Shown: piece after piece, positions 43,001-63,718 of the stretch
Numbering within the stretch: position 1 is the stretch's first letter
How the letters are laid out: every line of letters begins with the position of its first letter
Translations under genes and position numbers: made by a program
The notes under the pieces: generated by a model
Seen by the model: only the letters and a program-made list of their open reading frames with translations
Database searches by the model: none
Told to the model about the DNA's origin: nothing
Assembly (NCBI GenBank): GCA_905160935.1
Contig: CAJHZI010000245.1
Span: 1,216,001-1,280,000, forward strand
DNA length: 64,000 nucleotides
From: Enchytraeus crypticus
Taxonomy: Eukaryota > Annelida > Clitellata > Enchytraeida > Enchytraeidae
Direction: 5' to 3'

Positions 43001-46000
43001 ATAAAATTAAAGTAAATTAATTGAAGTAAATTTCGTATTTCGTTTTTGCATAAAACTTTAATGATTTTACATCTTGTTTGTAGCACCTCTCAGACTTATG
43101 GTTATGAAGAACGGAGCAGGAAACAAAGAAAAAGCTGTGCCCGTTGTGGCCCCTAATCTAAGCACGGTTTGTAATAATTTCAAAAATATCTCTCTCTCTA
43201 GTGTTCTGACAAATGGCAGGTCCAATGTTTATATTCATCATCAGTCTTCTTTCAAATACCATAGAGAGAACTCTTTATATTAACAAGTTAATCACCTCAG
43301 CGTCATGCCCTGTCGATGCCATATGCATCCTATATCTTGGGAAATATAGCTTCTGAGATGTTGCCTTCATTAGTTATTGCTTATTCGCCATTGACAACAC
43401 CTGCAGTCTACGGTTGGTCTACTTTTCAGCGACTTGGACACAGCACGGGTTATATATTAAAATACACGGGTAGCAATAAAACGGGTTATAATTAACTAAA
43501 ATTAATTTAAACTATGTGAAATGAAACAATTAACAATATCAATAGAATGCCTCAATGTCTTCAATGTCTTTGGTCTTCAATCGTCTCGTTACGGATCGTT
43601 ATGTTACTGTATGGATGTCCCTGAGATCATCCTTGGATAAGGAAACGGACGTTAAGCTTTATTGTTATTATAATTTTTTATTAGATGCAGAAGAAGCTGA
43701 AGAAGGAACAGTCTAAGCGTGGAGGTGTGGAAGATGAGAGAGACAAAAAAGATAACACCGGAAGTAGTATATCCGGAAGAGCTAGCGTTGCTTCCTCAAA
43801 CCCCGGATCTTCAATAGAGAATCCGTACCTAGTGGGCGATGATGAACATGCCTTGCTGCATTCAGATCCTGAAGCTGCCTTTAAGATAATCGAATTTAGA
43901 ATTGTAAGTATTTGCGTTAGTTCTTTAGTAGTAGGGGTAAAAGTAAAAAAGCTAGTGTTAACGTTAGTTTCCTCACTCGAAAGCGATGTCAGTGACGGAC
44001 GAGACCAGGATTTGAGCCCTGCACATACTGATCCGCGGTCGAATATCCTACCAACATCGCCACTGGCTCCAGCCATGTTAATATTATCCTACTACTATTA
44101 ATCTAGCCAGGTTAATATTATCCTACTACTATTAATCCAGCCATGTTAATATTATCCTACTACTATTAATCTAGCCAGGTTAATATTATCCTACTACTAT
44201 TAATCCAGCCATGTTAATATTATCCTACTACTATTAATCTAGCCAGGTTAATATTATCCTACTACTATTAATCCAGCCAGGTTAATATTATCCTACTACT
44301 ATTAATATATGTCTTACTTCATTGCAAGTAATCTTTATTGTTCTGTTTTGATTTTAAGAGATCATTCTGTAGACATCGGTTACACGTTAGCCTATACGTG
44401 ATTAGGTATATGTATGTCAATTTACGGTAGCCTATAATACCAAATAAATATAGCAAGCAAAACTAATTAAGTATTCAAAGATTAATTGGTTTCACAATTA
44501 GTAGTATTAATTAGTTGAGAGACATCTTATTATGGGCCTTCTCTATGTAATTGATTGACCAATTCCTGAAATATTATCTGTTTCAATTTTAAACTTACTT
44601 ACATTAATCACTTCCTGTAGAGATTATCCTTTGCTTGAACTCTTGCTAGGAATTTGTTTACATTTTAAATGATTATTCTGTAAGTACGAATTCGTAGTCC
44701 ATGTGCCTGATAACAAGGAAATTACCGTCTCAAAATCAACGTCAATTGATGGACTGACAGTTTTGATTGGTTAACGGTTTTAATTGATTTGCAGTTTTAA
44801 TTGATTGACAATTTTGATTGGTTGACAGTTTTAATTAATTGACAGTTTTGATTGATCGACAGTTTTAATTGATTGGTAGTTTTGATTGGTTGACAGTTTT
44901 AATTGATTGAAAGTTTTAATTGATTGACAGTTTAGATTGATGGAAAGTTTAGATTGATTGACAGTTTAGATTGATTGACTGTTTAGATTGATTGACAGTT
45001 TAGATTGATTGACTGTTTAGATTGATTGACAGTTTTAATTGATTTACTGTTTAGATTGATTGACAGTTTAGATTGATTGACAGTTTTGATTGGTTGACAG
45101 TTTTGATTGATCGACAGTTTTGATGGATTGACAGTTTTGATTGATTGACAGTTTATGGACAAGTGCACGCAGCAGCTTGATCTACCCTTTCCAGCCCGTC
45201 GCCTCTTTGACGAGAAAGGAAAAGAACACCTTTCGCTCTCTGAGCTAAAGCGTGATGCATTCGTCAACGTGACCTGCGGTGAACCTTGGTCTGACCCAAA
45301 TCTGAGTCGCTCTGAGCAGCAGAGACGCTTCCTATTGGCTAATCTAGCCAGTGACCTGACCCAAATAGAACAGTTTATTCGCATGAGATATCCCTCAAAA
45401 GGTAGACATTTATTAAAAATTGGGTTATATATTTCTATAGTTTTGTAATGATGGCATAAATGACTAACGTACTCTGTACAGTTGTACTTGCAACTATCTT
45501 AGTCTTTGCTCAGTCTTTTATTGACTGTATTAGCCTGTAAAGTTTCTCGCTATGTCTATAACGATGATGTTCTTCACGTCGAATTTTATTGGCAGCATAA
45601 ATAAATCTGTTTCTATTAATTATTAGACTAAAGTGTCTTTCCAGTAATTGTCTTAGTTGTAAAGTATCTTGCAGTATCTCGCTGTTTGTTTTTGTCTACG
45701 CACTGGTAATTGCATTCTGGCGGTGTTAGGGTACTTGCAGTTACATATCCGACCTGGGACGTCACTGACATTATTTTCCTCTAGGGAACAGGACTTTATG
45801 TATTCATTGTAATTGTAGATGATCCGTTTAAATCTGTGTGCTGTATTTCTTGGGCAGATCTCGTTCTACAAGTGGATTCAAATCTTACGGTCGGAAGCCG
45901 AATGATAGTCGACCTGAAGTCAGCTGAGAGGTCATCAAGCAAAGAGGATTTGAGAAGATCCACGGACAGTCTGAAAGAAAATAAAAGTCCACAAGAAAAT

Positions 46001-63718: not shown

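Follow-up and report, generated by a model that had tools for sequence, protein, structure and literature searches.

The window analysed here is a stretch of 64,000 nucleotides on contig C163 of the Enchytraeus crypticus assembly (524 Mb in 802 contigs), and it carries a DCDC1 gene identified by Pfam matches to DCX2_DCDC1 and Ubiquitin_DCDC1. The gene model was assembled from GT-AG exons that had to share one open frame throughout, which gives 39 exons and 38 introns, all 38 junctions being GT-AG, and a single frame of 2129 amino acids without a stop. The introns have a mean length of 932 bp and a median of 761. The acceptor of exon 39, which the original prediction had put near 63538, is at 63521, because the frame and a repeated motif that also occurs in exon 17 demand it; the two copies of this motif, 16 protein letters each, were compared by eye.

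In intron 4 of this gene, about 900 bp lie between two arrays (24680-24820 and 25739-25855) whose units are approximate reverse complements of each other (CGGACAAAAGCCCCC and TCCGGGAGGGCTTTTG), an arrangement like that of a transposon whose ends are repeated. Upstream of the real exon 29, intron 28 holds a partial copy of it at 50446-50584 (121 bp at 98%, a gap, then 19 bp at 95%), and intron 29 contains LINE-like sequence (52086-52343) encoding GDVELNPGP, which we take to resemble a 2A peptide motif. A 15-bp array in intron 35 (59890-60320) has long open stretches of STVQS repeats in which the gene finder called exons; the masked gene finder also took parts of it (59883-60302) as exons, and these were excluded from the hand-checked model. 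Together with the large arrays at 34262-34488 and 44068-44306, it lies in mid-intron, away from splice sites. Between positions 43000 and 64000, no Rfam family reaches its gathering score.

The unusual feature of the gene is that arrays stop at exon boundaries and reach into coding sequence (Table 1). Distances were taken from the end of the array, as given by TRF, to the last intron base, a negative value meaning that the array enters the exon. At TRF scores of at least 50, arrays end at the acceptors of exons 22 (-3 bp), 28 (+4), 30 (+6), 32 (+5), 37 (+3) and 39 (-14), the last value following from the acceptor at 63521, which makes the 86-bp array reach 14 nt into the exon. The five cases named in the original prediction (exons 22, 28, 30, 32 and 39) are thereby borne out at -14 to +6 bp, and exon 37 joins them as one absent from its list. 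The array that had been said to start at the exon 29 donor does so exactly at the GT (distance 0). Two other neighbours exist at slightly different distances: the array ahead of exon 25 is 23 bp from the acceptor rather than 19, and an array described as adjoining a vinculin donor (11437-11605) starts 17 bp inside the intron, the exon border being at 11623. This array has a 60-bp unit, and the vinculin intron is on the minus strand. The SINE or LINE 3' ends proposed near the acceptors of exons 21, 24, 33 and 35 are matched by dispersed-repeat ends 15, 4 and 5 bp away and, for exon 35, at the acceptor itself. In the exon 32 array, which is matched at a single other place in the genome (at 72%, along part of the array), one upstream copy keeps the acceptor AG and older copies have no AG there. 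The 86-bp unit at exon 39 combines the retroposon and array themes, since it includes the junction as well as fragments with matches of 40-70 bp at 31 listed places elsewhere.

Table 1. Position of DCDC1 and of the repeats and boundary copies at its splice sites (a slash marks the junction)
Feature	Position	Strand	Remarks
DCDC1 gene	21907..63718	+	exon 1 at 21907-22043, exon 39 from 63521; 39-exon model and Pfam
15-bp array	35480..35690	+	unit recurs at exon 13 acceptor (35675), by eye; split by a dispersed-repeat tail, 35599-35661
Dispersed repeat	43613..43675	+	end 15 bp ahead of exon 21
17-bp x 24 array	44746..45154	+	ends at exon 22 acceptor (exon start 45152); GACAG in most units, few exon letters
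Dispersed repeat	46534..46820	+	end 4 bp ahead of exon 24
(TGAC)n array	47231..47811	+	ends 23 bp ahead of exon 25
(TA)n	49843..49941	+	ends 4 bp short of last intron base before exon 28; plain microsatellite, no boundary copy
30-bp x 3.6 array	50941..51049	+	begins at exon 29 donor GT; units without exon letters
Exon 30 acceptor region	54940..55110	+	junction copy 135 bp upstream, 24/28 letters; 31-bp array (55000-55092) grown between
32-bp array	56345..56678	+	ends at exon 32 acceptor (exon start 56667); nearest copy, 38 bp upstream, is TTACAG/AGTATCAGATC
Dispersed repeat	57546..57638	+	end 5 bp ahead of exon 33
Dispersed repeat	58868..59113	+	end at exon 35 acceptor
14-bp TTGA-type repeat	61279..61312	+	ends 3 bp short of last intron base before exon 37
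Exon 37 donor and copies	61426..61789	+	copies 164 and 304 bp downstream, each with GT and exon letters
86-bp x 3 array	63272..63534	+	enters exon 39 by 14 nt; unit of dispersed-repeat pieces and junction

DCDC1 was selected for its pattern, and other genes are therefore the fair test. The sample beyond the window covers 294 kb (C163 including the window, C405 and C391), in which genes were predicted by a self-written gene finder, and it comprises 91 introns of nine genes: DCDC1 (38), vinculin (18), PLAA (9), a DCX/PLAT gene (9), a DCDC2-like gene (7), CFAP161 (4), an Ig-domain gene (3), a GPCR (2) and DnaJ (1). Eight of the nine match a Pfam family or a solved structure; the name of the DCDC2-like gene comes solely from its DCX domains, and that of DnaJ was given by eye. 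A tenth gene, DNAH6, was chosen from the coordinates of a DHC_N2 match alone, with its letters then unseen, and brings the total to 99 introns; its 10-kb stretch (L038) has nine exons in a single frame, with DNAH6 as the best match (E 1e-204). Exon borders other than those of DCDC1, vinculin and DNAH6 depend on the gene finder, which was initially trained on DCDC1 exons picked by eye. Unmasked, it predicted GA repeats as exons; these were rejected and a masked version was used in its place. Predicted exons with a coding score below 6 and disbelieved predicted genes were excluded before the counts, as were three vinculin exons and one PLAA exon removed by hand. The counts of array ends and boundary copies omit the two outermost DNAH6 sites, its first acceptor and its last donor, because their introns run off the stretch.

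Arrays with a score of at least 50 occupy 18,367 of the 121,698 intron bases (15%) of the 99 introns. For the test of array ends, strong arrays (period at least 9, TRF score at least 100) were compared with a null in which each is placed randomly within its own intron with an overhang into exons of at most one unit, the p values assuming that arrays are independent. Over the ten genes and 99 introns, 15 of 59 arrays end at acceptors against 3.09 expected (p 2e-5, the lowest value that the simulation can give), whereas there is no excess at donors (4/59 against 3.08). Without DCDC1 the acceptor count is 11/45 against 2.37 expected (p 4e-5), with 3 at donors against 2.35, and in DNAH6 alone it is 4 of 8 arrays against 0.66 (p 0.002). 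DCDC1 alone gives 4/14, where 0.40 is expected (p 0.0005) or, under a more generous null, 0.72 (p 0.003); with its weaker arrays included (score at least 30), the excess is smaller, at 6/77 against 2.2 (p 0.02). A narrower null applied without DNAH6 yields 9/51 against 1.33, or 5/37 against 0.92 (p 0.002) when DCDC1 is removed too, and an earlier run on believed and doubtful predictions without DCDC1 gave 5/69 against 1.43 (p 0.011).

An array end is found at 9 of 91 real acceptors and at 4 of 662 decoy AGs with acceptor-like scores (Fisher p 1.8e-6; introns longer than 6000 bp were left out of this comparison and the denominator of 91 was retained). The expectation that random placement of repeats would not produce such a pattern is thus confirmed, in DCDC1 as in other genes. 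The effect had been tied to DCDC1, and the pattern is indeed present there; its restriction to one gene does not stand, as several genes show the excess. A test of simple coverage gives no excess, with 8 of 91 acceptor junctions inside arrays and about 10% of random intron positions (8-13% by threshold). Random positions are as often inside arrays as acceptors are, so the boundaries are not more repetitive than the intron interiors, and the case depends on the array ends and on the exon letters in the units.

These exon letters were seen by aligning copies at the junction. Boundary copies were counted with a fixed 28-letter window over it, a match of at least 20 letters counting as a copy. Of the 99 acceptors, 14 have such a copy upstream, and of the 99 donors, 5 have one downstream, so that both 3' and 5' borders are represented; the corresponding figures are 2 for 198 exon interiors and 1 for 486 windows placed on foreign introns. 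The difference between acceptors and donors is borderline (p 0.051). Among the 14 acceptor copies, one is plain (TA)n (exon 28), and those of exon 22 and DNAH6 exon c share 3-4 exon letters. Boundary copies occur in at least seven of the ten genes examined, and alignments were made for vinculin, CFAP161, DNAH6, the Ig gene, the GPCR, the DCX/PLAT gene and DCDC1.

The units are best seen in individual cases. At a CFAP161 acceptor, a 37-bp unit (18 intron and 19 exon letters shown) has 11 upstream copies. Vinculin has 40-bp units at both kinds of border: one at an acceptor, with 25 intron and 15 exon letters and two upstream copies, and one at a donor, with 15 exon and 25 intron letters and 11 further copies, GT being present in all. 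In the DCX/PLAT gene, six copies follow one another upstream at intervals of about 61 bp. In DNAH6, exon b has three upstream copies in 43-bp steps with about 10-13 exon nt, and the copies of exons d and h contain about 75 and 45 exon nt; at its last donor, which is outside the counts, copies lie at +88 and +196, the boundary copy matching in 27 of 28 letters. Copies vary by point changes and indels and were found on four contigs. The acceptor arrays at exons 22, 28 and 37 of DCDC1 are plain microsatellites or nearly without exon letters.

Most of the splice-site arrays are thus likely to be local tandem duplications that span or touch the border, more often at the acceptor, and that have grown into minisatellites of the kind called "mirages." A segment spanning or touching the intron-exon border would duplicate in tandem and grow into a minisatellite; the copy joined to the exon would still give the same protein while the remaining copies became intronic, so that the array would end (at an acceptor) or begin (at a donor) at the working site. 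Splicing would ignore the other copies, most likely by exon definition, the outermost copy winning as part of the closest acceptor-donor pair across the exon. What is observed is the structure of the units, the exon letters in the copies, the acceptor excess and, in vinculin and DNAH6, a working site placed by homology. Slippage seeded at splice sites, one of the causes first proposed, comes close to this for the arrays, given border duplications with exon letters and an excess at acceptors.

Tandem acceptors of the NAGNAG type are competing acceptors that lie close together, and the E. crypticus units differ from them in being at least 17 bp long, present in up to two dozen copies and mostly out of frame. 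The name mirages comes from amphioxus, where it denotes tandem repeats over exon-intron borders, described in Adh3, the globin genes Gb6 and Gb9, troponin C and PGBD5 repeats (PMC3087553, PMC3902484). As far as these accounts go, the amphioxus mirages are likewise minisatellite-like copies of borders on the 5' and 3' sides, many but not all of which keep AG or GT, with units of 10 to about 160 bp where the annelid arrays have 17 to about 150. Here, too, tandem copies span the border with exon letters, the exceptions being exon 28 and the exon 29 donor (intron letters only), and the splice signal is kept in many copies, not in all. The accounts differ in that amphioxus mirages are backed by RNA and allele comparisons, while the present ones come from an annelid, in at least seven of ten genes, and from genomic sequence alone.

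Another annelid case is that of earthworm metallothionein genes, which have intron minisatellites and in which exon 4 is duplicated, the duplicates being missing from the final transcript (PMC12783039). The likeness lies in the phylum, the intron minisatellites and the exon duplications outside the transcript, but border-spanning arrays or a splice-site excess are not described in the available part of that paper. Intron gain by tandem duplication or repeat expansion, reported in Cryptococcus (PMC2395259) and in potato RdRp (PMC4974935), is similar, to judge from the accessible text, in that local DNA duplication copies splice signals; new introns arise there, whereas in E. crypticus existing introns are lengthened at their ends. 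In the titles and abstract openings listed by searches of the open-access literature (subscription journals being mostly outside it), no report of mirages in annelids or of their density in a genome was recognised. Mirages are the best name for these arrays, and the phylum is probably new for them, at high density.

Which copy works can be approached through protein relatives. In vinculin, the protein read through the copy joined to the exon body aligns gap-free to solved chains at the LGTPNREATF and CRRGQGNTPQ junctions, and DNAH6 has gap-free junctions against solved chains at MKEK-LPVIADLRNP, ILKK-VEENWKT, KTL-DAWLLCQRNWLYLE and SQ-VVLTVSQMMWCRD. These alignments suggest that the working site in both genes is the copy that adjoins the exon body. 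Of the ten unit lengths listed, eight are not divisible by three, so that splicing to a neighbouring copy would usually change the frame. With the (TA)n acceptor excluded, 36 of 56 upstream copies have retained the AG, where identity at the other sites predicts 0.68, and 21 of 23 copies have retained the GT (0.75 expected). Selection against AG in the extra copies is unsupported by these counts. The earlier idea that selection keeps one functional copy stands in the weak sense that the exon-joined copy matters; a disarming of the others is not borne out.

The preference for acceptors may have to do with the sequence ahead of them. The TTGA-type motif TTGATTGA is found on the sense strand in the last 70 bp of 16 of the 99 introns and in the first 70 bp of none (p 1.6e-5), compared with 73 of 1920 mid-intron windows (p 3e-6); its complement does not occur in the last 70 bp of any of the 99 introns. 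TTGAT fits the animal branch-site pattern. Acceptors could be favoured if their tracts in the E. crypticus genome are prone to slippage and seed duplications. This idea is partial because only two DCDC1 introns have the motif and the acceptor-donor difference stands at p 0.051. One could tentatively go further and imagine the acceptor region in this lineage as a duplication hot spot. Boundary minisatellites would then be seeded by TTGA tracts resembling branch sites, and roughly one in seven introns would carry a run of near-identical acceptors, of which the spliceosome would dependably choose the outermost through exon definition; splice variation would constantly be fed by changes in copy number. 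This wider picture is possible, though we would sooner doubt it than adopt it.

The order of events could also have been the reverse, with microsatellites or retroposon tails that already lay beside an exon being recruited as pyrimidine tract, branch site and AG. Plain repeats do sit at acceptors, such as (TA)n at exon 28 and a TATTG-type repeat at a GPCR exon, and the one-sided distribution of TTGATTGA (16 of 99 introns against none) would suit recruitment. So would the dispersed repeats of DCDC1, 5 of 29 of which end no more than 15 bp from an acceptor, namely those of exons 13, 21, 24, 33 and 35, against 0.62 expected. In the other genes of the nine-gene sample (DNAH6 is outside this test), however, 1 of 59 repeat ends lies within 15 bp of an acceptor against 0.77 expected, and 2 lie within 40 bp against 1.96, so that retroposon tails gain no support there as a general cause. 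The proposal that such tails serve as pyrimidine tracts thus keeps single DCDC1 cases in its favour and finds no acceptor excess elsewhere. Recruitment also leaves the exon letters in the boundary copies unexplained, and it is unlikely to be the main source of the arrays. At the donors of these other genes, 5 repeat starts are seen within 40 bp against 1.97 expected (p 0.04).

Local duplication, the preferred reading, has further competitors. If the extra copies were used as alternative acceptors, donors or small exons, the retention of AG in 36 of 56 and of GT in 21 of 23 would be natural, but most unit lengths would shift the frame and the relatives of vinculin and DNAH6 have no insertion at the junctions; such use is improbable. 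Arrays could mark young introns, born when an exon segment containing AG and GT was duplicated in tandem. The duplicated segments do contain splice signals, and the amphioxus authors propose such a route (PMC3087553). The E. crypticus copies lengthen existing introns, with one border per unit in the aligned cases, which makes this origin very improbable. Chance or assembly error has equally little to recommend it. DCDC1 was picked for its pattern, and tandem repeats are a recognised weak point of assemblies, but the excess recurs in genes that were not picked for it (11/45, p 4e-5; 4/8 in DNAH6), and the copies differ by point changes and indels and come from four contigs.

The results suggest that boundary minisatellites, reported from amphioxus, occur at high density in a distant phylum. 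Many genes with several to two dozen near-identical copies of a splice site are a ready-made experiment on site choice, in which the nearest copy, the outermost or all of them might be taken. Boundary minisatellites also bear on intron drift, on exon duplication and on gene annotation, the last because gene finders and aligners can misplace such borders, as happened with exon 39 in the original prediction. Elsewhere in the assembly, the mitochondrial contig of 15,205 bp has ten protein genes, recognised by eye, which follow one another on one strand as cox1, cox2, cox3, nad6, cob, atp6, nad5, nad4, nad1 and nad2, an order typical of annelids. Fragments of cox1 with stops on contigs C361, C424, C796, C373 and C166 (the last below the family cut-off) are probably nuclear copies of mitochondrial DNA.
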